From a virus, in the IMG/VR virus record IMGVR_UViG_3300032288_002935, positions 1 to 64,000 of that record: a stretch of 64,000 nt of DNA; one strand, given 5' to 3'. The translations under genes and the position numbers were made by a program. The first letter of the stretch is position 1. Every line of letters begins with the position of its first letter. The notes beneath the pieces were generated by a model, which worked only from the letters and a program-made list of their open reading frames with translations, made no database searches and was not told the DNA's origin. This document shows, piece after piece, positions 1,716-64,000 of the stretch.

Positions 1716-3329
1716 ATGAGTTATTTCAATCATGCGTACCGCAAGTCATTTGTTGGTACGAAAGCTACACAAGCTGGTTCAGGTACAGCTAAAGCAGTTA
1801 ACAATGGTTTCTTAACGGATGCTGGTGTTCCTACTTCAGCATTAGCTGAAACTGCTGCTCCATACGCATTAGGTGTTGGAACTTATGGATTTTTTAATCC
1901 AGATACTTATGTATCAGTGAATGCTGCTTCTGCGGAAGTTATTGCAGGTAAACCTTTAGTTTTTGCTGCTGCATCATTGTTTACAAATGATAAAATTGGA
2001 CCATTCCACGGAGGGTACAAAGAGTCAAACAAATCTAAAATGATCAATCCAAGATTTGTGCACAAGTTTACTAAAATGACAGGTGCTGCTACTGAGCAAT
2101 CTATTTGGCATTTAGGGAACACAAACTGGAATGCTGATGCAATTGCAACTTTAGGTGCTCTTACAGGTGGTACTGGTTACACAAATGGTACTTATACTAA
2201 TGTTGCATTAGTAAGTACAGTTGGTGCTGGTGCTTTAGCTACTGTAGTTGTAGCTGGGGGTATTGTAACAGGTATTACAATTACTGCTCCTGGTCAAGGT
2301 TATGCTGTTGGTACTGTTTTAACTTTACCTGCTTCTGTTCCTTATACAGCTGGTACTCCTGCATCTACTTCGGTTGCTACAATTAAGTACAATGCTACTG
2401 GAAGTACAGTTTGTAAATTTGATTTTGTTTGTGGGGAAACTTACAACTTACGTTTAGATTTATGGGGTTCTCCAGTTCTTCGTTTCTTAAACCATGATTT
2501 GTACAAAACTTTAGCTGCATCTACTGGATGTTGTCCTGATGGTACAATCGTACCAGGTAATGTTGATTCAACTTTAGTTATGATCAATTGGGCTAACCAA
2601 ATTGTAAATGATTTATGGTTACAACATTTCATCAGACCAATAGTTTACACTCAAAATGGTCTTCCATTGTTTGCTACTGCTGCTGAAGCTGTTGCTGCTG
2701 GTTTCACTGCTGCTGCACCTGCTACTCCATCAATACCAGGTTCTGCGTCTATTTGGGCTAACTATGTATCTCCAGGATATATTGCTGGAACAACAGCTGG
2801 TTTACGTTTAGTTACTGCTTATGTAGAAACTAAATTTGGTAACTGTTCTTTCCAAAACTCTGATTTCTTTGAGAAAGAAGTAGTTCAAATGAATGTTTCA
2901 TTAACAGATTTATCTGGTGAACCATGTGAATTCTCTGCATTATGTGCAAACAAAGAGTATGCTGGATTTACAGGTCAAGGATTTGGTGAGCAAGTTTTAA
3001 GAGATGTTATCTTGGATGAGTCTTACTTACAAAATCATTTCTCTGATGATGTTCGTATCCGTGAGATTACTCAAGGAGATCAATACTTCACAGCAATTAA
3101 CCGTAATGCATTATATACTCGTTATGTAATTCAACACAGTGTTCCTCGTTATAACAACCCTTCAGGTGTTTATGACAATGATCAATATGCATTGAATATT
3201 TATGTACCAGCTGCTACTGCAACTGCGTTTGAAGCATTCATGGCTGTTTGGTTAGGAGCTGCTGCTGTAGGTGGTGTAGTTTCTTTAGAAACTTATGGTC
3301 ATACTGCGTATACTCCGGCTGCGCTTTAA
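1716..3329 (+). CDS. Major capsid protein, crAss-like (HK97 fold expected)
   Basis: The 537-residue protein opens MSYFNHAYRKSFVGTK and contains NDKIGPFHGGYKES, FVCGETYNLRLDLWGSP and RFLNHDLYKTL followed by TGCCPDG, all hallmarks of crAss-like major capsid proteins. The fold is known from that family to be HK97-like and forms the head shell. Residues about 147-225 look like an inserted module: Gly/Thr/Val-rich with GGTGYTNGTYTN and PGQGYAVGTVLTL, a pattern familiar from phage fibre beta-domains. It probably projects from the capsid surface. The gene has its own leader and is followed by a strong terminator, which suits high expression. Confidence 0.92.
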   Translation: MSYFNHAYRKSFVGTKATQAGSGTAKAVNNGFLTDAGVPTSALAETAAPYALGVGTYGFFNPDTYVSVNAASAEVIAGKPLVFAAASLFTNDKIGPFHGGYKESNKSKMINPRFVHKFTKMTGAATEQSIWHLGNTNWNADAIATLGALTGGTGYTNGTYTNVALVSTVGAGALATVVVAGGIVTGITITAPGQGYAVGTVLTLPASVPYTAGTPASTSVATIKYNATGSTVCKFDFVCGETYNLRLDLWGSPVLRFLNHDLYKTLAASTGCCPDGTIVPGNVDSTLVMINWANQIVNDLWLQHFIRPIVYTQNGLPLFATAAEAVAAGFTAAAPATPSIPGSASIWANYVSPGYIAGTTAGLRLVTAYVETKFGNCSFQNSDFFEKEVVQMNVSLTDLSGEPCEFSALCANKEYAGFTGQGFGEQVLRDVILDESYLQNHFSDDVRIREITQGDQYFTAINRNALYTRYVIQHSVPRYNNPSGVYDNDQYALNIYVPAATATAFEAFMAVWLGAAAVGGVVSLETYGHTAYTPAAL

Positions 3330-3965: not shown

Positions 3966-4106
3966 ATGGGAAGTCAAGTATGCGCAAATTGTGGAGTATG
4001 TACATGTACAGGTACTCAATTAGTTAAAGCAACAAATGGTAAATCATGTTGTACTGCTTGTGTAAACGTAGTCAATCAGCAAATTGCTGAAGGACAAATA
4101 AAATGA
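3966..4106 (+). CDS. Tiny cysteine-rich protein (46 aa)
   Basis: ATG at 3966 lies one base after the upstream stop, and TGA at 4104-4106 lies 4 bases before the next ATG. The product starts MGSQVCANCGVCTCTG and later has SCCTACVNVV, so seven of its 46 residues are Cys in CxxC-like spacing. That suggests a small zinc-binding or disulphide-rich peptide. The N-terminal pattern resembles the first 15 residues of later appendage proteins (starts at 6289, 7064, 8959 and 10327). Function unknown. Confidence 0.6.
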   Translation: MGSQVCANCGVCTCTGTQLVKATNGKSCCTACVNVVNQQIAEGQIK

Positions 4107-4989: not shown

Positions 4990-5010
4990 GTTATTAGGAA
5001 AATTAATTAA

Positions 5011-5030
5011 AATTTTGTATATTATTAGAT
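5011..5030 (+). promoter_or_regulatory. Putative A+T-rich promoter box before gene at 5031
   Basis: The 41-base gap contains AATTTTGTATATTATTAGAT ending directly at the ATG. The core GTATATTA (5017-5024) is the same octamer as at 11946-11953 and 19032-19039. It lies only 6 bases from the start codon, so a transcript starting just after it would have almost no leader. It could instead be part of a translation leader. Confidence 0.3.
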
Positions 5031-5540
5031 ATGGGAAAGCCGACAAATACTAGAACTGCAGGATGCGCAACAACTACAAGTAACTGTGTTGTTTGGCAAG
5101 GTCCTGATTTATGCTGTATTGATCTTTGTCACGGAGATTCAATCAGTGAAGTAATAAATGAATTAGCAAAAAAGATTTGTAAGATTTTTGAATTGTTAAA
5201 TATTCAATCTTATGATTTATCAGAATTAGCTGGAACATGTGGTCCATCTAATTATATTGAGTTAATTCAATTATTAATTGATGAAATAGCTACATTAAAA
5301 AATAATACAAATACAGTTTCAACAAGTGCTTCAGGATGTCCTGATTGTGAATTAGCTGTTGCAACTTGTTTTCAATCTCAATATGGGGTTGTATTGTCAA
5401 TGACAGATTATGTAGTTGCTATTGGAAAAAAACTTTGTGATCAACAAGTACAGATCCAAACACAAAATAATGCTATTGCTCAATTGACACAACAAATAGC
5501 AAATATGCAAGTACAAATAAACTTATTAATAGCAGGATAA
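5031..5540 (+). CDS. Appendage/fibre protein with adaptor domain and C-terminal coiled coil
   Basis: The 169-residue protein has an N-terminal Cys motif, NCVVWQGPDLCC, followed by a helix with GDSISEVINELAKKIC (C19 to C50). This pattern recurs in the protein starting at 7064 and in other Bacteroidetes phage fibre proteins. The middle has SASGCPDCELAVATC. The last 35 residues form a Gln-rich heptad repeat (VQIQTQNNAIAQLTQQIANM) typical of a trimeric coiled coil. A trimeric head or tail fibre, or the stalk that other fibres attach to, is the likeliest role. The motif sharing is seen directly; the role is inferred. Confidence 0.6.
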   Translation: MGKPTNTRTAGCATTTSNCVVWQGPDLCCIDLCHGDSISEVINELAKKICKIFELLNIQSYDLSELAGTCGPSNYIELIQLLIDEIATLKNNTNTVSTSASGCPDCELAVATCFQSQYGVVLSMTDYVVAIGKKLCDQQVQIQTQNNAIAQLTQQIANMQVQINLLIAG

Positions 5541-5541
5541 A

Positions 5542-6285
5542 ATGAAAAAGAAATGTTCTACTAATGCTATTTCAATTAGCACACCAGTTCCTACATGTCC
5601 AACTGTAACTCCAGTAGTTCCTGTAGTACCTGTTGGATGTTCTGATCCATTAACTTATTTTTTTAAATTAGTTGTTAATTATTCTATTAGTCAAAATGTA
5701 AAATTTGATGTAGCTTTTGATGATTTGTTAGCAGTAGGATTGATTACTCCTACAGCTGATATAATTTGTTGCCCGGATTGTACAAATGCACCATTTTATG
5801 GTCTTATGAATGTTTCAAGGTTAAATGTTTTAGCTGGTATGTTAAACTGGCAATCAACAGAACCTAATTTAATTACTCCTTGTTGTATAAATGTTGAAGC
5901 ATCTGTTGAAAAATATAACAATTATATTACATACATGCTTAATGGAGATACACCAACTAAAGAAATACCTGAGTGTTGTGATAATAATTTTACTTCATGT
6001 CTTAAATTATATGCAGATAACTTAGATTATTTAGCATTATTAAATGATGGTATTGTTGAAGTAAATACATTAAACAATCAAAGTTCTTTGTGTAATTTAT
6101 ATAATTTGTTAGATACTTATGCTGATCAAATTACACTGACATCAACTGTATCTAATTTTATTTTAGATTTTTTACAGGGTGGGTTTGTAGTTCATTGTTG
6201 TGGTTGCAATATATTTATTGGTACAGTTAATGCATTTGAAGCTTATTTAAATACAAATATTTGTTTAGAATTAAATCCTTATTAG
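5542..6285 (+). CDS. Cysteine-rich virion protein, first of a paralogous pair
   Basis: This 247-residue protein starts one base after the previous stop. After a Pro/Val-rich, Cys-tagged leader it contains FKLVVNYSISQNVKFD, CCPDCTN near residues 77-83, CCIN, ECCDNNF and a C-terminal HCCGCNIFIGT. The next gene repeats the same landmarks in the same order at similar spacing, so the two are tandem paralogues. The regular CC pairs suggest zinc sites or stabilising disulphides. The C-terminal part ends in NAFEAYLN, as the partner ends in NTFMEFYYN. Probably part of an appendage in the virion; no named domain. Confidence 0.6.
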   Translation: MKKKCSTNAISISTPVPTCPTVTPVVPVVPVGCSDPLTYFFKLVVNYSISQNVKFDVAFDDLLAVGLITPTADIICCPDCTNAPFYGLMNVSRLNVLAGMLNWQSTEPNLITPCCINVEASVEKYNNYITYMLNGDTPTKEIPECCDNNFTSCLKLYADNLDYLALLNDGIVEVNTLNNQSSLCNLYNLLDTYADQITLTSTVSNFILDFLQGGFVVHCCGCNIFIGTVNAFEAYLNTNICLELNPY

Positions 6286-54638: not shown

Positions 54639-55022
54639 TTACAATTTTAATATGTCTTTTAATTCAACTTTTTTAAATCCTTCAGGCTTAATAATTTTAC
54701 CATCTTCTCTGATGACAGCTTCGCCATCTGGACCTAACTTTGACATATTATTTTGATGAACTAAATCAAATGCTCTTTCAATATGATTTTGTAAACCGTG
54801 TTTGCAGATTGTTCCAAAAATAATGTAAAGTTGATCTGCTAATGCATCAAGAACTTCTACTAAATCTTCTTCACCAGCTGCGACAATATATTCATCCAGT
54901 TCTTCTTTACCAAGATTATATCTTAATAATGATTCTTTTTTACTTAACAAAGTCGGTCTTTCATTTTGAGTCTGTTTGAATTTGGTGTGAAAAAATTCCA
55001 CCATTTTAATTTGCTTTTGCAT
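54639..55022 (-). CDS. MazG/HisE-like nucleotide pyrophosphohydrolase
   Basis: The 127-residue protein has the all-alpha NTP pyrophosphohydrolase layout: MVEFFHTKFKQTQNERP, then RYNLGKEELDEYIVAAGEED with an ExxE pair, then LVEVLDALADQLYIIFGTIC with an ExxD pair. Those acidic residues bind magnesium in MazG and HisE-type enzymes, which hydrolyse nucleoside triphosphates to monophosphates. In phages such enzymes may clean nucleotide pools or lower alarmones. The C-terminal part, DLVHQNNMSKLGPDGEAVIR, is typical of phage phosphoribosyl-ATP pyrophosphohydrolase-like proteins. The chosen ATG follows an A-rich leader, TTAAAAAAAAACATAT; an internal ATG at 55004 is possible. Confidence 0.8.
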   Translation of the reverse strand: MQKQIKMVEFFHTKFKQTQNERPTLLSKKESLLRYNLGKEELDEYIVAAGEEDLVEVLDALADQLYIIFGTICKHGLQNHIERAFDLVHQNNMSKLGPDGEAVIREDGKIIKPEGFKKVELKDILKL

Positions 55023-55045
55023 ATATGTTTTTTTTTAAGTTACAA

Positions 55046-55270
55046 TTATAAACCTGCTTTGCTATAAAAATATTTAGCAACTTCAGGTATATGTTTTTTA
55101 TAATAAGGTTGATTCTCTTTGCACCATTCTTTAATATCTTTTTTACATATAAAAGGTTTAGTCCAACCATTTCCGCGCATTATGGTATCAAATGTTGGCT
55201 GAAGACTTTGTATAAAATCTTTTACAGTCCATCCTTCCCATATATGTTTGTTGTAATCTATTTTACCCAT
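55046..55270 (-). CDS. Small conserved-type phage protein (74 aa)
   Basis: The frame extends 10 codons further up, but the ATG at 55270 overlaps the stop of the previous gene in the usual tight way (ATGGGTAA), so I prefer it. The product begins MGKIDYNKHIWEGWTVKDFI and contains WTKPFICKKDIKEWCKENQP and YYKKHIPEVAKYFYSK. It is basic, Trp-rich and mostly helical. Proteins with this KHIWEGWTVKDFI opening look familiar from Bacteroidetes phages, but I cannot assign a role. It lies in a run of small early genes, a typical site for host-takeover or counter-defence proteins. Confidence 0.6.
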   Translation of the reverse strand: MGKIDYNKHIWEGWTVKDFIQSLQPTFDTIMRGNGWTKPFICKKDIKEWCKENQPYYKKHIPEVAKYFYSKAGL

Positions 55271-55532
55271 AAGCTTTAATAAATCTGTTATATGCACCAA
55301 CTATGTATCTGCTGGCCCATGTGTAATTCTTTTCTTCTAAAGCTGCTTCTAATGCAGTGTAGGCAAAGTAATTATTAGACACTAATGTATCATCACTTCT
55401 CCTGAACATAATAGTATTTGCATTGTTATCACCTTCTTTGTAGCAACTATAGAAATAAAAGTCCTCTGTGATTATTGATAATCTGAACAGAGAACCTTTA
55501 ATTGTTTTGGTTTTTGGAAGTTTTATAAGCAT
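55263..55532 (-). CDS. Small unknown early protein (89 aa)
   Basis: The 89-residue protein begins MLIKLPKTKTIKGSLFRLSI and continues with a beta-rich part, EDFYFYSCYKEGDNNANTIM. It ends in a helix with ALEAALEEKNYTWASRYIVG. Its stop overlaps the next gene's start by 8 bases, and its own start is one base from the upstream stop. No domain was recognised. It belongs to the tightly coupled small-gene run of the early operon. Confidence 0.55.
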   Translation of the reverse strand: MLIKLPKTKTIKGSLFRLSIITEDFYFYSCYKEGDNNANTIMFRRSDDTLVSNNYFAYTALEAALEEKNYTWASRYIVGAYNRFIKAYG

Positions 55533-55533
55533 C

Positions 55534-55752
55534 TTATATTTTTTTATAACCTTTACTTAATGCTACATCTGATATTGTCAAATGTATTTGTTCAACAATC
55601 CATTCATTTGTTAATGCGTCATCTAATACTTCTTGAGCATCTTCATTATCATGAACAACATAGGCATCTTTAACATCATTTACATGCCATAAGTTATCTA
55701 CAAAGTATCCAGCTTTACGCAAAACCTCTTTTGCTTTTTCAATTTCACTCAT
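55534..55752 (-). CDS. Small conserved-type protein (72 aa)
   Basis: The product begins MSEIEKAKEVLRKAGYFVDN and continues LWHVNDVKDAYVVHDNEDAQ, then a helix with VLDDALTNEWIVEQIHLTIS. The opening (helix, GYFVDNLWHV, acidic helix, NEWI) is a form I recognise from small proteins in many Bacteroidetes genomes and phages, without a known function. It overlaps the end of the upstream 55-residue gene by 8 bases. It is acidic and probably a compact alpha/beta fold. Confidence 0.6.
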   Translation of the reverse strand: MSEIEKAKEVLRKAGYFVDNLWHVNDVKDAYVVHDNEDAQEVLDDALTNEWIVEQIHLTISDVALSKGYKKI

Positions 55753-55912
55753 CTGCTTTTTCTTTTAGTTCTTCAGCACTAATTTTAAATTTTGATTGTT
55801 CATTGCTATCTGCATAATGAACTAAGTAGTAATCTTCATACTCTGATACTGAATCAATTACAACTTTTTGGTTATTAAAATAACCTTCTACAATTTTGAT
55901 TTCTTTTTTCAT
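55745..55912 (-). CDS. Very small unknown protein (55 aa)
   Basis: Reading the minus strand, an ATG at 55912 opens a frame of 55 codons (MKKEIKIVEGYFNNQKVVID...) ending at TGA 55747-55745. It fills what would otherwise be an unusual gap in a densely packed operon and overlaps the next start by 8 bases. The protein has a beta-hairpin look (KIVEGYFNNQKVVIDSVSEY, then DYYLVHYADSNEQSKF) and ends in a charged helix. Its size, a 6-base spacing from the upstream stop and an A-rich leader support it. No function known. Confidence 0.55.
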   Translation of the reverse strand: MKKEIKIVEGYFNNQKVVIDSVSEYEDYYLVHYADSNEQSKFKISAEELKEKADE

Positions 55913-55918
55913 AATTTT

Positions 55919-56242
55919 TTACCTTGAAGTTAAGCAATTTTGACAAAAGTTGTCCATTGTTTCATCATATTTATGACCACATTTTGGACAATTTTCTTGT
56001 ATTCTTTCTGATATTAATTCAACATCTGATGGATCATATTCAGTATCATCATCTTCATCATGTTCAGAAATAAAACCTGGTATATAACCACATCTGTCTA
56101 AAAGAGATTGAGGTGTTTCTTTGATTAAGCCGGTTGAATATAATTCAGAAATCATATTCTTTCCAAAACTTTCAATGTCTTCATGATCAGAAAAATACCA
56201 ATCTAAAAATCTTGATTCTTTTACTCTAACTTTTTTAGCCAT
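55919..56242 (-). CDS. Small protein with C-terminal zinc ribbon
   Basis: The 107-residue protein has a basic N-terminus (MAKKVRVKESRFLDWYFSDH), an acidic middle (EHDEDDDTEYDPSDVE) and a C-terminal CPKCGHKYDETMDNFCQNC. The two CxxC pairs there, 12 residues apart, fit a short zinc ribbon. Such ribbons often bind nucleic acid or protein partners. Its start overlaps the end of the upstream gene by 8 bases. A regulatory role in the early operon is possible but not shown by the sequence. Confidence 0.6.
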   Translation of the reverse strand: MAKKVRVKESRFLDWYFSDHEDIESFGKNMISELYSTGLIKETPQSLLDRCGYIPGFISEHDEDDDTEYDPSDVELISERIQENCPKCGHKYDETMDNFCQNCLTSR

Positions 56243-56549
56243 TTTTTTCTTTATTTAAATATGTATATTTAGATATAAATTTAGACCAAGTTGAACCTAA
56301 AGTTGATCTTATAGTTTTATAAGTTTCTACATGATTTCTTACAAATTTTTTTTGTTGTGCTTTTGCTTCAATCCGAAACCCAACTTCTTTATATTCAGCT
56401 TTTTCTACATTTGGATAAACCAAATTCATTTCTCCACTTTCTTCAAGATGTCTGTGTATATCTTTTTTCCATTTATCACCAGCAATCTCTAATTCAAAAA
56501 TGTATTCTTTTTCATATACAATAGTATATTTTATTTCTATTTTACTCAT
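56235..56549 (-). CDS. Small unknown early protein (104 aa)
   Basis: The 104-residue protein begins MSKIEIKYTIVYEKEYIFEL and looks beta-rich for the first 60 residues, with YKEVGFRIEAKAQQKKFVRN, then a basic helical end (RSTLGSTWSKFISKYTYLNK). It overlaps both neighbours by 4-8 bases. No domain was recognised. The strong Lys and Tyr content matches the neighbouring early proteins. Confidence 0.55.
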   Translation of the reverse strand: MSKIEIKYTIVYEKEYIFELEIAGDKWKKDIHRHLEESGEMNLVYPNVEKAEYKEVGFRIEAKAQQKKFVRNHVETYKTIRSTLGSTWSKFISKYTYLNKEKNG

Positions 56550-56755
56550 TCTGATAATTTGTTTATTTTGTACAACACTTCTTTTAAATCTTGAGCTGCT
56601 CTTTTAATTGCTGCTCTTTCTTTTACTCTATATGGCTCACAATCTCCAATCATTGCCGCAGCAATTCTATTTTTATAATCTAAAAACTTTGACTGGAACC
56701 TTTCTAATTCAGGTTCCAGTTCTCTAATTACATCCAAGTCTTTTTTAAACTTCAT
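56546..56755 (-). CDS. Small helical protein (69 aa)
   Basis: The frame is open to 56782, but the ATG at 56755 gives MKFKKDLDVIRELEPELERF and overlaps the end of the upstream gene by 11 bases, as is usual here. The 69 residues form a likely helical hairpin (ELEPELERFQSKFLDYKNRI, then RAAIKRAAQDLKEVLYKINK). A coiled-coil or protein-binding role is possible. No family recognised. Confidence 0.5.
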   Translation of the reverse strand: MKFKKDLDVIRELEPELERFQSKFLDYKNRIAAAMIGDCEPYRVKERAAIKRAAQDLKEVLYKINKLSE

Positions 56756-56918
56756 TTTTATTTTTTTGTAAATCATGTACACATAATCTTGCTAGATATT
56801 GTGAGCATTTGTATTTAATTTGAATACGCTTTTCTAAAGCTTTAGGAACAAGTGTAGAATAGTCTATGCTAGATTCTATTACAGCTTGAACAATTACTCT
56901 CCGTTTAGTTGAAATCAT
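56745..56918 (-). CDS. Very small unknown protein (57 aa)
   Basis: An ATG at 56918 on the minus strand opens a 57-codon frame (MISTKRRVIVQAVIESSIDY...) ending TAA at 56747-56745. It lies 10 bases after the radical SAM gene stop and overlaps the start of the next gene, matching the packing of the operon. The product is basic, with YKCSQYLARLCVHDLQKNKN at its end. No domain; supported mainly by context. Confidence 0.45.
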   Translation of the reverse strand: MISTKRRVIVQAVIESSIDYSTLVPKALEKRIQIKYKCSQYLARLCVHDLQKNKNEV

Positions 56919-56928
56919 GCAGTTAAGA

Positions 56929-57801
56929 TTAAAAACAGTATCTAATAGTATTCCAGGGTATTATTTCATTATGCAATGCAGCAAACTGTTCAATGTATTC
57001 TTTTTTAATCTGGTGCTTGTATCTAATATTATTGCCTCCAAACTGAGATACTTTTGCTTCTTGAATTTTTGGATTCCATAATAAGACTTCTCCTGGTAGA
57101 TTATTGTCTACATTGTATTTGTGTTTATCTGCATTGTGTGTAAGAAAAATCACTTCAGATTTTACACCTTCTTTCCATCCAAAATGATATTTTGCTGCTT
57201 GTATATGCTTAAATAATTCTCTATAATCATCTAACCAATTCATACCTACTATAACAGGACTAAAATTTAAGTGCACATCATAACCTGCATCTTGAAACTT
57301 TTTAACAGCATATATTCTATCTTTTATTGGACTTGTGTTAGGTTCAAGAATTTGTCTATACTCTTCCGGCATAAGGCTAAATCTTATTCTTACTTTACCT
57401 TGAGGGTTAAACTTTAATAAGTCTTCATTAAAATACTTAGTAGCAAATGAACCCATTGCTCTTGGATGCATAGCAAAGAAATCAAATATTCTTTGCCACT
57501 CATGGTATTTAGCATGTAGTGCAAAATCTTCATTGCACGAAATATCATATGTGATATATTCTTCATGGGTTTGATTAGGTTTTACTACATCTGCAAACCA
57601 TACATGACTGTTTATTGCTGTAAGAATATCTCTAAAATTTGTTGCAATAGATAAACCTGTAGGTTTATTTCTTTTCATATAGCAGTATGTACAATTGTAC
57701 AAACAACCGTGACCAAAGGAAGGAGTAATAAAATCCGTACTCCTTCCACTTGGTAATATACGCATACTTTTTCTATAAGTGTTTGTAATTAATTTATTCA
57801 T
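56929..57801 (-). CDS. Radical SAM protein, spore photoproduct lyase (SplB)-like
   Basis: The 290-residue protein carries FGHGCLYNCTYCYMKRNKP, with cysteines at 33, 37 and 40 in the CxxxCxxC pattern that holds the radical SAM iron-sulphur cluster. The sequence around it (RILPSGRSTDFITPSFGHGC) and the later VRIRFSLMPEEYRQILEPNT and VHLNFSPVIVGMNWLDDYRE match spore photoproduct lyase and related DNA-repair radical SAM enzymes. That family reverses UV thymine damage without light. The usual start is the ATG at 57801; a TTG two codons upstream is less likely. It overlaps the upstream gene by 8 bases. Repair of phage DNA is likely, but another base-modifying role cannot be excluded. Confidence 0.8.
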   Translation of the reverse strand: MNKLITNTYRKSMRILPSGRSTDFITPSFGHGCLYNCTYCYMKRNKPTGLSIATNFRDILTAINSHVWFADVVKPNQTHEEYITYDISCNEDFALHAKYHEWQRIFDFFAMHPRAMGSFATKYFNEDLLKFNPQGKVRIRFSLMPEEYRQILEPNTSPIKDRIYAVKKFQDAGYDVHLNFSPVIVGMNWLDDYRELFKHIQAAKYHFGWKEGVKSEVIFLTHNADKHKYNVDNNLPGEVLLWNPKIQEAKVSQFGGNNIRYKHQIKKEYIEQFAALHNEIIPWNTIRYCF

Positions 57802-58069
57802 TGTCAATTAACCATTGTGCTAATTTGTGTCTTATTTCACTTGGACCTATGTATTCAAACACATCTTCAGGTTTTATAAGATGAGTACATAAAATTTTAG
57901 TAATGTCATTAACTTGACCTAAATATTTAATGATTTCATTTAATGGTATTTCATCTAACATATCACAAATCTGAGATGGATTCATGTGTAACCTTAAATC
58001 TATCTCTTTATTTGCACGCGGTTCAATATTTGCAGAACTGGCAACTACATCTATGATTATATCATTCAT
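57794..58069 (-). CDS. Small acidic helical protein (91 aa)
   Basis: The 91-residue protein begins MNDIIIDVVASSANIEPRAN and is largely helical and acidic (MNPSQICDMLDEIPLNEIIK, then FEYIGPSEIRHKLAQWLIDN). It ends 8 bases inside the radical SAM gene and starts 5 bases after the preceding gene. No known domain. It could bind the neighbouring repair or helicase proteins, but this is only a guess from position. Confidence 0.5.
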   Translation of the reverse strand: MNDIIIDVVASSANIEPRANKEIDLRLHMNPSQICDMLDEIPLNEIIKYLGQVNDITKILCTHLIKPEDVFEYIGPSEIRHKLAQWLIDNE

Positions 58070-58074
58070 ATTAT

Positions 58075-58350
58075 TTAATATTCATCAAGATTTTCACTGT
58101 TGTGATAAATAATATCACCATCTGAATTATAAAGTTCTTGTGTTGCACTTCCACCATTTTCATTTGGAAGCATAGGTTCTTCATATGCTTGATCAGGACC
58201 ATCCTGAACAAAATAAACTCCTTCAATATTTATTAAATCATATACTTCATCAGAGTCTGATTCTTTAAGTCTTTTGATAACTTCATCTACTTTATCATCT
58301 GGAATATACATTCTTGTCCAGGTTGTTACTTTGTAATCTAAATGTGCCAT
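58075..58350 (-). CDS. Small acidic protein (91 aa), unknown
   Basis: The 91-residue protein begins MAHLDYKVTTWTRMYIPDDK and continues VDEVIKRLKESDSDEVYDLI, then a loop-rich acidic C-terminal half ending YHNSENLDEY. The first 50 residues read as strand-helix-strand. It starts one base after the helicase stop codon, so it is translated from the same message. No function recognised. Confidence 0.5.
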   Translation of the reverse strand: MAHLDYKVTTWTRMYIPDDKVDEVIKRLKESDSDEVYDLINIEGVYFVQDGPDQAYEEPMLPNENGGSATQELYNSDGDIIYHNSENLDEY

Positions 58351-58351
58351 T

Positions 58352-60193
58352 TTAATTAATTTTTAAATACTTGTTATTAGTAACTTCTACTTTGCATTTA
58401 GCTCTTGTAATAGCTGTATAAAACCATTTTGCTGCATCCCATACTGGCATAAGCCATCCTGCATCAATGTAAACATTGTCCCATTCTTGACCTTGAGCTT
58501 TATGACAACTAATTGCATAACCATAAGTGGAAATTGTTATATCTTTATTAAAGAAATATCTAGTTTTACCATTACGCGGAGTGTATTCACTTACAAGTAG
58601 TCTGTATAAATTATCAGGAATTGAGTTATTTCCTTCTCTGATTGCATCTACAATTTGTTTGCCGTGCATTGATGCTTCAACTAAATCTGGAATAAGTAAT
58701 GTCATTTGTCCATCATGCCTGTATATTAACATTTTGTATTTTTTTATTTTATCATCTCTGGTTTCTACACTGAGATCAAAGTCATGCATAAGCATTGCAT
58801 TTTTTAGCTTATAAATCTCTCCGTTTGAATACATTGATGAGTTTGATACAGATACAATGATGTCACCTTCTTGCGCATAACCTGTAATAGTCTTGTTGCT
58901 GAACAAGTAAGCTCTGATCTTTTCATTGTATTGAACTCTTCTTTCATTAGTTGATGTAAGAACTACATAATTACCATCTGCTTTTATGTCTTGTGCAAGA
59001 CTTTTACTAAATTTTGGTACTGATGTAAGATCTGATTGCTCTGGTTGCTTAAATGATGCTTTTTTACAGGTCCTAATGTCTGTTGCAATCTTTAACAATG
59101 AACCATCATATCTTTTAACTTCAGTTAATTCATATCTGTTATGAGGTAAGAAGTTTTCAGGATAGCTTTGTTCCCAATTAAAAATCTTCGGATCATCTCC
59201 TACTGGTTCCAATTGGAAACTATCTCCCATGAATATAATCTTACATTTTTTTTCAATTGCTTGCTTCATTAATACCTCAAGGACATACTTATCAATCATT
59301 GAACATTCATCTACAATATAAGTACCTCTAACTTTAAGTGTTTTGTCTACAAAAAATGTATTCTTTTTGTCACCAGCTGAGAATAATGCTGAGTGAATGG
59401 TACTAAAAATTAATGCCGGATTGTCAATTTTTTCTTTTAATCTGTTTACTGCTGCATTTGTTGGTGCAAGTAGCGAGGCTCTAGTAGCATTTGCTATGTT
59501 TTCTGCAATAGTTGTTTTACCACAACCTGAGTAGCCTGCAAGCAAGAAGAATGTATCTTCTGTTTGTAGGAATTTAAACACTTTGTTTAGTGCTTGTTTT
59601 TGGCCATCTGTAAAATCTATTGCCTTTTTTCTGGCATTGAATAAGTCACTTAATGTCATGTTTATTTTTTTTAAATAGTTTTGGTAAGCTTCAGCTGCAT
59701 CTAATTCTTCTTTATACAATCCTAAGTATATTAATTTTCCGTTGTGCAAAATTTTTGATTCATAAAACTTTGCATTTTTGTTAAAAGACACACCTGTATA
59801 TTTAGAAGAACCGTGTTTTTCTTTGCTGGTATTTTCTCTGTTTGTAAGTAACTGTAGATTACAGACTCTGTTGTCAGTTTTAATATTATTTATGTGATCT
59901 ACCACAATTGACAATTTGTTTAGAGTGTGGTTTAAAAATGCTATTGCAATAAGCTGATGTACTTTTAGAGTTATCTTCTTTTTATTTAAAGATACATTTA
60001 CTTTGTAATATCCATTTTTATGAAGACTTGGCTTTAATACAGTTATTTTATTGAAATAATTAGAGCGTATGTTACCCAATGTTGAAGCCTCATATTTTTC
60101 ATATCCAGGTATAACTTTCCATATCTCTGTTTCCATTTGCTTTGTGTTAGCGAGTGTGATGATAGTAACCGCATTGCTGCGATTACTACCCAC
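58352..60193 (-). CDS. HNH homing-endonuclease module fused to Dda-like SF1 helicase
   Basis: One 613-codon frame joins two proteins. Residues 20-60 form a NUMOD4 domain (METEIWKVIPGYEKYEASTL), about 76-125 an HNH domain (IVVDHINNIKTDNRVCNL), and about 128-175 an AP2-like DNA-binding domain (KYTGVSFNKNAKFYESKI). From M179 a complete SF1B Dda/RecD2-type helicase follows: Walker A GYSGCGKTT (220-228), DE at 295-296, GDSFQLEPV (323-331), ELTEVKR, and a final FYTAITRAK. The ATG for M179 (59659) has its own A-rich leader, AAAAAAAATAAAC, so helicase may also be made alone. Likely starts for the fusion are GTG 60193 or ATG 60136. Confidence 0.85.
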   Translation of the reverse strand: MGSNRSNAVTIITLANTKQMETEIWKVIPGYEKYEASTLGNIRSNYFNKITVLKPSLHKNGYYKVNVSLNKKKITLKVHQLIAIAFLNHTLNKLSIVVDHINNIKTDNRVCNLQLLTNRENTSKEKHGSSKYTGVSFNKNAKFYESKILHNGKLIYLGLYKEELDAAEAYQNYLKKINMTLSDLFNARKKAIDFTDGQKQALNKVFKFLQTEDTFFLLAGYSGCGKTTIAENIANATRASLLAPTNAAVNRLKEKIDNPALIFSTIHSALFSAGDKKNTFFVDKTLKVRGTYIVDECSMIDKYVLEVLMKQAIEKKCKIIFMGDSFQLEPVGDDPKIFNWEQSYPENFLPHNRYELTEVKRYDGSLLKIATDIRTCKKASFKQPEQSDLTSVPKFSKSLAQDIKADGNYVVLTSTNERRVQYNEKIRAYLFSNKTITGYAQEGDIIVSVSNSSMYSNGEIYKLKNAMLMHDFDLSVETRDDKIKKYKMLIYRHDGQMTLLIPDLVEASMHGKQIVDAIREGNNSIPDNLYRLLVSEYTPRNGKTRYFFNKDITISTYGYAISCHKAQGQEWDNVYIDAGWLMPVWDAAKWFYTAITRAKCKVEVTNNKYLKIN

Positions 60194-60200
60194 TCTTGAG

Positions 60201-61838
60201 TTATTGTTTATCTACTGTGAAGAACTCACTTGAGTCAAGCATTACAATTACATGGTCTGTACCATCTATTGTATTTGTAACTGTTCTTTTATTATTATAT
60301 CTATCTACAAGAATAGACATAACTTCTTCTCTTACATTATCAGGAATAAGATTAGGTGCACTTGTGAATTTTTCGTCAGGATTTTCATCTGTGAACCATG
60401 GAACATCGTCTATTGATTCATCATCTGCACCATCATCCATTAAGTCAAATAGGTCTTCAGGGTTTGGAGCTGTAGAAGCAATTAATCCTTCATAAGGATC
60501 TTCTTCTTTTTCTACAACATCATGTTCTTCTTTGATGTTATCAATTTGCTCTTTGGACATAATTGCTTCTTCTATTCTTTCTTCAATAGTTTCAATTACT
60601 GCAGGCATTTCATCAAGATTATATTCACCTTCTAAATCAGATAAATCAATTAGTTCATCTTTCACAAATTCAGGAACACCTGCATGTTCTAATAATTCTA
60701 CATCATCATCTTCAATGAATTCAGTTAAATCTTGCAACTCAACAAGTTCACCATAACTTACACTTTCATCTTGAATTGATTCTCTGATTTCTTCTAATCT
60801 TTCTTTCTTAGCATCAACTGCATCAAACAATGATGGTTCTTCTGGTTTGAATAATGTTTTTTCTTTTACCAGATTCTGTGCTTGAATAAGATTTTCTACT
60901 GATTCCATTTCATCTTTTTCGGATTCTACAGAATGACCTGCACACGGAGCAATTACACCTTTGGCTTCAAGTCTATCCCATTCAGCATCTTCTTCTGCAT
61001 CAAGATCTATAACTTCAGATTCATCAACAGGTATCATGTCTAACTCATCTGTTGCATAGACTTCTTCTACAGCTTCAAAGTCTAATTGATTAGCTTGTTC
61101 TTCATTAGCAATTTCTACTTTAGCAATGTTGTACATTACTTGAATGTAGTTATTGATTTTAATCTGTTGAGAATACCAACCTCTTGGTGGCTGATCAGAT
61201 ATACCATGCATCATGATTTTGTAAGCTTCCCAAAGAGTTCCTTTATCATTGTAGTTAAATGATGGTTTATCATACTCTTTTCTAATCAAACTTGCTTGAG
61301 TAGGAGCTATGATTAATTTATCAAAATACAACAAGCCCATCAATTTTGCAAACTCTTTTCTTGATAGTTCAATTTCTCTGAACCTTTCTTTCATTTTTAC
61401 AATTTGCTCAAAGTGTTCTTCAGCAGAAGCAATCATTGATTCAATGATGTCAAGTGTTTCATCTAATGCAACTCCTGTATGTTTTCTATTCCAGGTAGCT
61501 TGAGTATCAGATGTAATGAATGGAACTTCATTATCATAAATAAAACCTCCAATTGAACATTTAAATCTTACCATTTTGTTGTAAGAGTTTGTCCAATAGA
61601 AAGTCATTGCCATATCAGGATCAGTTACTTTTTCAATTTTCATCAAACCATAAGCAATATCTCCACTATGTTCTGATTTGTATTCCTCACTTAATATAGC
61701 AAACCCATGCTTTTCAAGCATATCTCTTGCAGTATCTATAACAACACCGTGTGCAATTACAGTATATGATTTAGTTTCTTCTGGTAATTTTGTTTTTCTT
61801 AAATAATCTTCTGTCTGTGTTTTAACTGAACTTGTCAT
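60201..61838 (-). CDS. DUF932-like phage protein with acidic C-terminus
   Basis: The 545-residue protein begins MTSSVKTQTEDYLRKTKLPE. Residues about 20-220 resemble the DUF932 family of phage and plasmid proteins: ARDMLEKHGFAILSEEYKSE, WTNSYNKMVRFKCSIGGFIY, ATWNRKHTGVALDETLDIIE and then a long helix. The second half is strongly acidic and disordered (AEEDAEWDRLEAKGVI, then many Glu/Asp runs), a feature often used to bind basic partners or mimic DNA. The stop of the polymerase gene overlaps its start (ATGA). Role in replication is inferred from the neighbours; DUF932 has no established activity. Confidence 0.65.
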   Translation of the reverse strand: MTSSVKTQTEDYLRKTKLPEETKSYTVIAHGVVIDTARDMLEKHGFAILSEEYKSEHSGDIAYGLMKIEKVTDPDMAMTFYWTNSYNKMVRFKCSIGGFIYDNEVPFITSDTQATWNRKHTGVALDETLDIIESMIASAEEHFEQIVKMKERFREIELSRKEFAKLMGLLYFDKLIIAPTQASLIRKEYDKPSFNYNDKGTLWEAYKIMMHGISDQPPRGWYSQQIKINNYIQVMYNIAKVEIANEEQANQLDFEAVEEVYATDELDMIPVDESEVIDLDAEEDAEWDRLEAKGVIAPCAGHSVESEKDEMESVENLIQAQNLVKEKTLFKPEEPSLFDAVDAKKERLEEIRESIQDESVSYGELVELQDLTEFIEDDDVELLEHAGVPEFVKDELIDLSDLEGEYNLDEMPAVIETIEERIEEAIMSKEQIDNIKEEHDVVEKEEDPYEGLIASTAPNPEDLFDLMDDGADDESIDDVPWFTDENPDEKFTSAPNLIPDNVREEVMSILVDRYNNKRTVTNTIDGTDHVIVMLDSSEFFTVDKQ

Positions 61839-63811
61839 AATAATAATTGGGTTTGTGTAGCAGGTTCAATCTTTGTGATTTCTTTTCTGATTTCTCTCAA
61901 GTAATAAAGAGTATCAATTTCATAATCATCAAATGATTTTTCTACATACTTATTCATAATTCTTTCTAAACTTTTTGATGCTTCAATCTTAATGACTTTA
62001 TCATCTTTAACTTTTAAAATCTTACATCCTTTCTTGGACATATAATATCTTAGTGTTTTCTGTACAGAACTGTTATCCAGTCTACCATCTGTGTAACAAG
62101 TAAGATTAAATTTCCAACCACCAATGGCTCTTGTACCACCACAATAATCATAGATGTTATGATTTTCCTGCAATGTTTTTTCAGGATCTTGATTGTGTAC
62201 AAAGTAATAGTAGTAAGCAATTCTTTTAATTCTGAAACTTTTGTTTTTATGAAGTGGTTTATCAACTTCAAATCTTCCTTTACTCTTTGTATTAAACAAA
62301 AAATATTTATCATCTTTTGTTCTTTTAATTAAGGGTTTTGGAAACTCTGTTGTAATTTTCTTAATTGCATCTTCTTTGGGAATTTCTTTACCAGCAAAAA
62401 TACCTATGTAATTATTTACATCAGGAATAATAAGTTTTTCATAAACCTCAAATTCTAATTGGAGTTTTGTTAAGGCCTCCCACTTGTCACATATCTGATG
62501 ATATAGTTCTTCATATTCTCGCGGAATAATAATCTCACCACCATCAGTATTTACCATTATTGGTCTTGCACCTGGTATGGACTCACACAACTCTTCTAAC
62601 AACATGACTAATAACAACTGACCATTGCAAGTTATTCTCATGGTGAATAGACTATCTTTAAGAAAAGAATTATCTTCATTGGACAAACCATAAGTAGAAT
62701 TCAGCAAAATTTTGTATACATAATTTAATGGATCTTTTTTACTGTATTTCTTTCTGTCTTCAAAGAAACTTTCATAGATTTCACAAAAGGCTTCCTTGTT
62801 TATATGACCAGGAGCCCAGTTGTTTCTAATTGAAAGATTAGGATAGAATGATGTTACATCAAATGATTTGATAACGAAATTTTTATCAGAGGTATAGATG
62901 CCTTTTTTAGCACCGTGAATACCACCTAATGCAAATGATAATGTCAATCCTTTGTAAGTCAATTCATGTTTGAATGAACCTTTTAGATTTTCTCCATCCA
63001 GTTTTAATTTCTTAAACTTGGACAATGTGGCTTTTAACTCAGGAGTTTTAAATTCTATATATGGCAGGATTGCCTCATTAAGATTTATAACTTTCCTGTA
63101 AGTCTTTTTCTTTTTAAGTTCATACTCAGGAATGTTTAACTTCTGAGATAATAGCTTTAGGAAAATACTTTTAGCCAACTTTGGTTCAGAATGGTTTGTC
63201 AAATTCATCTTGAAATGTTTTGACAAATTTGTTCTAAGTAATATCTCAGCTTTGTTTCTAAAGAACAATTCCCTTGTAGATAAGCAGTCATTAATGCAAT
63301 ACTTCAGCAACATTAATATATCCTGTTCATTATGATTTTTGCTATGATCAGTACTCATGTCTTCAACATTATGCCAATCCATGCTATACTGTAGCCATTT
63401 AAGACTACAGCGTTTAGCAGGATTATCATAGTTGTTTATAGCTAGAATGTCACATTCTTTAAAAGGATTGTCTTTAGGATGATACAATGGAAACTCTTTT
63501 GAGTTAGCTCTCTTAATAACTTCTTGTGCTATCTGATATACATTATTAGCAATATCTCCACCATTATATCCAAAGTAATTAGTCTGGTATAAAAATCTGG
63601 ATATTTGATTATCAAATTTTAAACCATTGTAAGAGATTAGTGTTGTTTTTTTATCAATACATTGTTGTAAAAATGCAACATATTCTTTGTATTGATTTCT
63701 ATATGTACTTACCTCAAATGAAATAATTTCATCAGGGTTTTGTACATTTATGAAGACAGCTAAAAAGCAATTTGCAACTGTTTCATAGTCATATACATAT
63801 CCTTTAGCCAT
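61835..63811 (-). CDS. Family B DNA polymerase with 3'-5' exonuclease
   Basis: The 658-residue enzyme has exonuclease motifs at D8-Y-E10 (VYDYETVANCF), N62-D67 (SYNGLKFDNQI) and Y171-D175 (YCINDCLS). Its polymerase motifs are A at 316-324 (SFDVTSFYP, D318), B at 367-375 (KILLNSTYG) and C at 420-425 (VNTDGG). Motif C reads N-T-D-G rather than the usual D-T-D-S, keeping the second Asp (D423). It is a short member of the family, with only about 40 residues between motifs A and B. It replicates the phage genome; the helicase downstream is its probable partner. The ATG at 63811 follows the upstream stop by 11 bases. Confidence 0.9.
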   Translation of the reverse strand: MAKGYVYDYETVANCFLAVFINVQNPDEIISFEVSTYRNQYKEYVAFLQQCIDKKTTLISYNGLKFDNQISRFLYQTNYFGYNGGDIANNVYQIAQEVIKRANSKEFPLYHPKDNPFKECDILAINNYDNPAKRCSLKWLQYSMDWHNVEDMSTDHSKNHNEQDILMLLKYCINDCLSTRELFFRNKAEILLRTNLSKHFKMNLTNHSEPKLAKSIFLKLLSQKLNIPEYELKKKKTYRKVINLNEAILPYIEFKTPELKATLSKFKKLKLDGENLKGSFKHELTYKGLTLSFALGGIHGAKKGIYTSDKNFVIKSFDVTSFYPNLSIRNNWAPGHINKEAFCEIYESFFEDRKKYSKKDPLNYVYKILLNSTYGLSNEDNSFLKDSLFTMRITCNGQLLLVMLLEELCESIPGARPIMVNTDGGEIIIPREYEELYHQICDKWEALTKLQLEFEVYEKLIIPDVNNYIGIFAGKEIPKEDAIKKITTEFPKPLIKRTKDDKYFLFNTKSKGRFEVDKPLHKNKSFRIKRIAYYYYFVHNQDPEKTLQENHNIYDYCGGTRAIGGWKFNLTCYTDGRLDNSSVQKTLRYYMSKKGCKILKVKDDKVIKIEASKSLERIMNKYVEKSFDDYEIDTLYYLREIRKEITKIEPATQTQLLL

Positions 63812-63822
63812 AGTATTTTATT

Positions 63823-64000
63823 TTAACAAGAAGCCCAACCTATAAATCTATATAAGCCTGGTTTTTCTTTTTCAGATTTTTTATATGTAATCTTTGCGCA
63901 ATTTTGATTACCAACAACTATGTCTTTTGTAATAATTACTGTAAGTGAAATTTCAGGATTTCTTTCTACAAATGCTCTTGCTTTTTTAATACATGCTGTT
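63823..64000 (-). CDS. C-terminal part of a small unknown protein (start outside window)
   Basis: On the minus strand an open frame enters from the window edge and ends TAA at 63825-63823. The visible 59 residues include ACIKKARAFVERNPEISLTV, then IITKDIVVGNQNCAKITYKK, and end YRFIGWASC. It is basic with a helix-strand-strand look. No family recognised. It lies just upstream of the polymerase gene in the same direction. Confidence 0.5.
   Translation of the reverse strand, partial: TACIKKARAFVERNPEISLTVIITKDIVVGNQNCAKITYKKSEKEKPGLYRFIGWASC

Follow-up and report, generated by a model that had tools for sequence, protein, structure and literature searches.

How a homing endonuclease comes to share one uninterrupted reading frame with a replicative helicase is the question raised by a viral DNA stretch of 64,000 nucleotides (positions 1 to 64,000 of IMG/VR record IMGVR_UViG_3300032288_002935, hereafter the window). 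There, a single frame on the minus strand at 58352-60193 stays open over 613 codons with zero internal stops, and the endonuclease passes into the helicase at the junction ...KIN-M with neither a stop nor a linker in between. The same fusion, with the same 477-nt insert length and the same junction, was found in a 117-kb contig (L001), in which identity to the window is 80% for the endonuclease and 76% for the helicase. Since this contig comes from another metagenome and has the identical frame and junction, the fused junction is, on this comparison, no assembly accident. An earlier note on the window had proposed the in-frame fusion and had read the last endonuclease codons as running into the helicase Met, and both proposals were borne out by the open frame and by the junction shared with L001.

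The open frame as called mechanically reaches back to a GTG at 60193, which we rejected as the true start because the leader frames are not conserved between the window and L001; the same hairpin DNA translates as NAVTIIT in the former and KCGYYHH in the latter. As the hairpin leader is read in differing frames and is hence non-coding, ATG 60136 is most likely the start of the endonuclease and of the fusion, and the DNA between this ATG and the stop of the upstream gene is, by the same comparison, a non-coding leader. Counted from ATG 60136, the fused gene (58352-60136; like its leader and its neighbour, on the minus strand) comprises 159 endonuclease and 435 helicase codons, 594 aa in total. 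The upstream neighbour (60201-61838) encodes 545 aa without a family match and also lies before the helicase in relatives, whether or not these carry the insert. A strong hairpin (60152-60195; ...GCGGTTACTATCATCA...) ending in GGTTACTATCATC lies 3' of the stop of this neighbour. It is conserved, with both sides of its stem varying between genomes, and is found at about 1782 in L001 and at 3969, 3967, 2091 and 2971 in the relatives L002, L004, L033 and L035; a variant form occurs in L125. In L033, the hairpin remains 3' of the upstream gene although the helicase sits three genes off. Possible roles of the hairpin are those of a promoter, a processing site or a regulatory site.

The endonuclease module (59660-60136) has no stop codon. 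Pfam placed NUMOD4 at residues 23-67 of the 613-codon frame (59993-60127; PF07463, 3.9e-13) and HNH_3, with the motif VVDHINNIKTDNRVCNLQLLT...N, at residues 97-121 (59831-59905; PF13392, 1.1e-6), and both pass their curated cut-offs (49.8 bits vs 23.4 and 28.6 vs 24.8, respectively). The AP2-like DNA-binding domain at residues 130-178 (59660-59806; E 0.0018) stays under its curated cut-off with 18.9 bits vs 33.3 and is tentative; Foldseek matched AP2 structures in fold (probability 1.00, E 0.05-0.3), and DSSP gave its last helix. The HNH family phrog_99 spans residues 17-178, including the AP2 region (PHROGs, 7e-28). The earlier assignment of residues 20-175 to a NUMOD4-HNH-AP2-like endonuclease holds by separate Pfam and PHROGs matches, with the AP2 part tentative. 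The closest solved structure is I-HmuI (sequence 3e-8, fold 2.5e-6), the fold matches to AP2 domains being weaker. A 594-residue AlphaFold model was poor over residues 1-108; the endonuclease (pLDDT 83) and the helicase domains were modelled separately, and no domain arrangement is claimed from the 594-residue model.

Homing endonucleases often decay after invasion, and this commonness of decay speaks for a degenerating relic, in which the endonuclease is dead and forms a mere N-terminal extension of the helicase. The module is full length, its D/H/N residues are intact (D80, H81, N93 and N102 are invariant across 27 endonuclease homologues), and its dN/dS of 0.17 between the window and L001 indicates purifying selection; we consider a relic the least probable of the explanations weighed here. 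The I-HmuI type (PDB 1u3e) has NUMOD4 and HNH_3 in common with the fused enzyme. I-HmuI, however, sits in a group I intron, whereas the fused endonuclease has no intron, has an AP2-like C-terminus and is joined to its neighbour. A group I intron endonuclease was rejected, with the helicase uninterrupted and the Rfam scan of 55000-64000 giving no intron match at E ≤ 1. An intein was rejected as well, because the insert lies wholly before the first codon of the helicase, the helicase is uninterrupted and no intein family appeared in the Pfam and PHROGs scans.

The rest of the frame (58352-59659, 435 codons) is a Dda-like SF1B helicase with an ATG of its own at 59659. It is matched completely by phrog_325, which spans residues 190-611 (1.2e-71), and Pfam found AAA_30 and UvrD_C_2 in it. 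The Walker A motif (GYSGCGKTT) and the DECSM motif are present and invariant among relatives. T4 Dda (PDB 3upu) was among the best PDB profile matches (1.3e-18) and was the top fold match (1.4e-21); it represents the closest helicase family, but Dda carries no nuclease domain. ATG 59659 is the first helicase codon, as relatives with an empty site begin there. The earlier view that this is a full SF1 helicase with its own ATG is thus confirmed by the complete family match and by the starts of these relatives.

These relatives reveal what was added. We compared six helicase genomes with aligned starts; L003 is a duplicate of L002. In L004, L002/L003 and L035, the hairpin leader directly abuts the helicase ATG with no insert, whereas L033 lacks the endonuclease and has other genes before its helicase, joined to it by a TAATG overlap. 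L004 is insert-free though its helicase is 98% identical to that of L001 (dS 0.24), so the pair is polymorphic for the insert at a site that is otherwise identical, occupied in L001 and empty in L004. The note had named an N-terminal domain shared by all sister phages as an argument against a recent in-frame insertion, and this check favors the insertion: L002/L003, L004, L033 and L035 lack the domain, and their helicases start at the equivalent of M179, while L001 has the identical fusion. Because the sister of L001 and three further relatives do without it, the endonuclease part is, by alignment, a removable insert, and it is probably mobile. Its position is exactly between the helicase leader and the start codon. 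A stretch at 60137-60150 (CTAACACAAAGCAA; CTAA-CACAAAGC) is extra in the occupied alleles only (the window and L001; not L004) and likely forms the insert's left end. The earlier note had taken the A-rich DNA before ATG 59659 for the helicase's own leader, which is wrong as to origin, as this DNA represents the last codons of the endonuclease. The original leader of the helicase is the conserved hairpin leader which, by comparison with the empty sites, now lies before the endonuclease; the A-rich stretch may now act as a leader in its place.

We thus favor, with a probability of roughly 0.8, that a free-standing I-HmuI-like NUMOD4-HNH-AP2 gene invaded the exact start of a Dda-like helicase gene and became fused to it in frame, the fusion being due to the missing stop codon of the endonuclease. 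The endonuclease would nick or cut insert-free helicase alleles near the leader/start-codon junction, and its gene would be copied into the cut allele by recombination. Placed behind the helicase's leader, it would be translated from that old leader, and the helicase would survive as the C-terminal portion of the fused 594-aa protein. It would also be kept as a probable free protein of 435 aa started at ATG 59659, the A-rich initiation region for which would be encoded by the last codons of the endonuclease. The nicking site, the homing and the two products are the parts of this explanation that we infer.

Free-standing homologues of the endonuclease, 40-54% identical to it, have their stop codon right after the residue at which the fused module ends, as in L017, which reads ...EYQKALNKIN and then TAA. 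Together with the empty sisters, this supports the history suggested before, namely that a homing gene was inserted before the helicase and that its stop was lost or never present. Among those non-redundant free homologues with a callable next gene, 55 of 69 lie within -30 to +21 nt of the start of that gene; the same range holds 25 of 63 on their upstream side and 192 of 415 adjacent same-strand pairs in general. The genes downstream of them include terminases, a primase/polymerase, exonucleases and structural genes. Among 83 non-redundant homologues (the window copy excluded), L001 is the only one fused to its downstream gene, which makes two fused examples with the window included; the missing stop may be under selection or neutral. 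The gap 5' of free endonucleases (loci L008-L117) clusters at about 80-170 nt (29 of 63), which suggests a kept leader or a structured 5' region before free endonuclease inserts. At L026:4001-5861, a homologue of the HNH enzyme with an additional N-terminal segment lies 10 nt before the next gene, the N-terminal part of which resembles the gene upstream of the L001 helicase (start L001:100).

Since most free homologues form tight pairs with the next gene, one may suppose that the window, too, has two genes, and that a one-base change in an A8 run, by transcriptional slippage or as a sequencing indel, only makes them appear as one. The window junction reads TTTAAAAAAAATAAACATG, and removal of one A gives an in-frame TAA (KK-TAA), with the ATG two bases on. 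In L001, however, the run is interrupted (AAACAAAA), yet the same fused frame and 477-nt length are found, and we regard such a two-gene arrangement as very unlikely.

Around about 80 Dda-like helicase loci in viral contigs, an HNH gene upstream or in frame was seen only in L001; none of 50,697 phage records covers 80% of the fusion query; and a scan of genome contigs for further fusions gave just generic Dda/RecD-type helicases. Two plasmid records counted as covering at least 80% of it were not confirmed as fusions; the best of them, from Chryseobacterium oryzae, has no NUMOD4 or HNH Pfam match. Between the window and L001, the dS of the endonuclease (0.70) is the lowest of the compared gene pairs (others 0.8-2.3, the attached helicase 2.28), the fourfold-site test being weak (p = 0.046). 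This fits a later horizontal spread of the endonuclease and is suggestive only.

To judge whether a free helicase could be produced, we examined the start context of ATG 59659. From the 32 assigned ATG starts of the window phage, which are A-rich and have no Shine-Dalgarno sequence, we built a position-weight matrix (PWM) and scored these starts by leave-one-out. ATG 59659 scored 8.86, topping all 32 leave-one-out starts and all 339 internal in-frame ATGs, and its equivalent in L001 scored 8.00 with the same rank. The two endonuclease ATGs scored poorly (-6.4 and -4.7); most helicase starts at empty sites also scored poorly, yet are predicted to be highly accessible behind the hairpin. The predicted accessibility of ATG 59659 falls in the top 1.6% of 312 internal ATGs. 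On the basis of score and predicted accessibility, we regard ACTATTTAAAAAAAATAAAC (59660-59679) as a candidate internal translation-initiation region. Like its counterpart in L001, it has A at -3, -6, -12 and -13, and adenines at these positions raise initiation in Flavobacterium johnsoniae (PMC6847099). The 3' ends of the endonuclease family are A-rich in general (A makes up a mean 0.60 of the 20 nt preceding the downstream gene), and for this reason the strength of the start context could follow from coding for an A-rich AP2-type C-terminus. The start context and the predicted accessibility support, rather than prove, that both the fusion and the free helicase are products, and the free 435-aa helicase is probably made from ATG 59659. 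The note also proposed that a replication helicase would target the endonuclease, which the present results neither favor nor oppose. More tentatively, and with some doubt, one may imagine a class of phage homing endonucleases that spreads by seizing the leader of its target and returning a start signal encoded by its final codons; the essential gene which it abuts or is fused to would then not be silenced, and the fusion and the free helicase would come from one message.

The fusion could instead be a domesticated nuclease-helicase, whose nuclease module now works as part of the helicase and whose functional form is the 594-aa protein; recombination and the exclusion of rival phages are examples of what it might do. 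Two phages that have diverged (helicase dS 2.3; HNH dN/dS 0.17) both retain the open frame and the two domains, and in the endonuclease model the final AP2 helix (residues 144-158) stops one residue short of the helicase Met, leaving no room for a linker. That the frame has stayed open in two genomes is weak evidence, because few codons can turn to stop without harm to the enzyme. Moreover, the insert is missing from L004, with its 98% identical helicase, and from other relatives, its end is the end of free homing enzymes, and the start context of the helicase is retained. Domestication is thus unlikely.

Compared with known systems, invasion of the start of the helicase gene has several partial likenesses. 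Homing endonucleases are already known beside replication genes of phages, as are intron endonucleases fused in frame to exons. In Escherichia phage U1G, an HNH gene overlaps a Dda-like helicase gene by 11 nt and, like the fusion, lies before the helicase start, and the sister phage G7C is without this HNH gene; the U1G genes, however, are separate with their own stop codons, and the U1G enzyme has no NUMOD4 match. In Salmonella phage PVP-SE1, an HNH gene overlaps a primase/helicase gene by 4 nt, again as separate genes with their own stops. These are unrelated phages; homing may repeatedly target the start of the helicase gene. The seg and mob genes of T4 are likewise selfish homing genes between phage genes with translational overlap, and five of the free-standing T4 endonucleases overlap the upstream gene, which is thought to hold their translation low (PMC2988022). 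They thus overlap the gene upstream, whereas the fused endonuclease comes first and uses the leader of its target. In 'core creep' (PMC10448965), endonucleases of mitochondrial introns share a reading frame with the exon upstream. As in our case, a homing endonuclease is joined in frame to a gene of its host, but those enzymes are intron-borne and spliced, whereas the phage endonuclease is intron-less and N-terminal. Our search of the open-access literature found no report of an HNH endonuclease in frame at the N-terminus of a phage helicase. The arrangement would represent a third lifestyle by which a selfish endonuclease, needing neither intron nor intein, resides at a replication gene: insertion exactly at the start codon, with the leader borrowed and the frame left open. 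With L001 occupied and L004 empty, this pair offers a direct means of testing homing, leader capture and internal initiation. Annotation pipelines would name one protein of 594-613 aa where two functional products may exist.

The window belongs to an uncultured phage whose host is likely a member of Bacteroidota, because a 1641-aa structural protein has matches in the Cellulophaga phages phi17:2/phi4:1 and in Flavobacterium phages and the starts are without Shine-Dalgarno sites. In view of these matches, and of a 537-aa protein at 1716-3329 without a match among phage records, a crAss-like identity was not adopted. Three giant genes of 2462, 3910 and 2034 aa occupy 28858-54089, the latter two without a PHROG match. 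In L033, a spore-photoproduct-lyase-like gene (L033:4843-6689), homologous to that at 56929-57807 of the window, is split by a two-piece intein-like sequence, and the intein-like pieces are overlain by an HNH-like ORF (4991-5875) that runs on the other strand.
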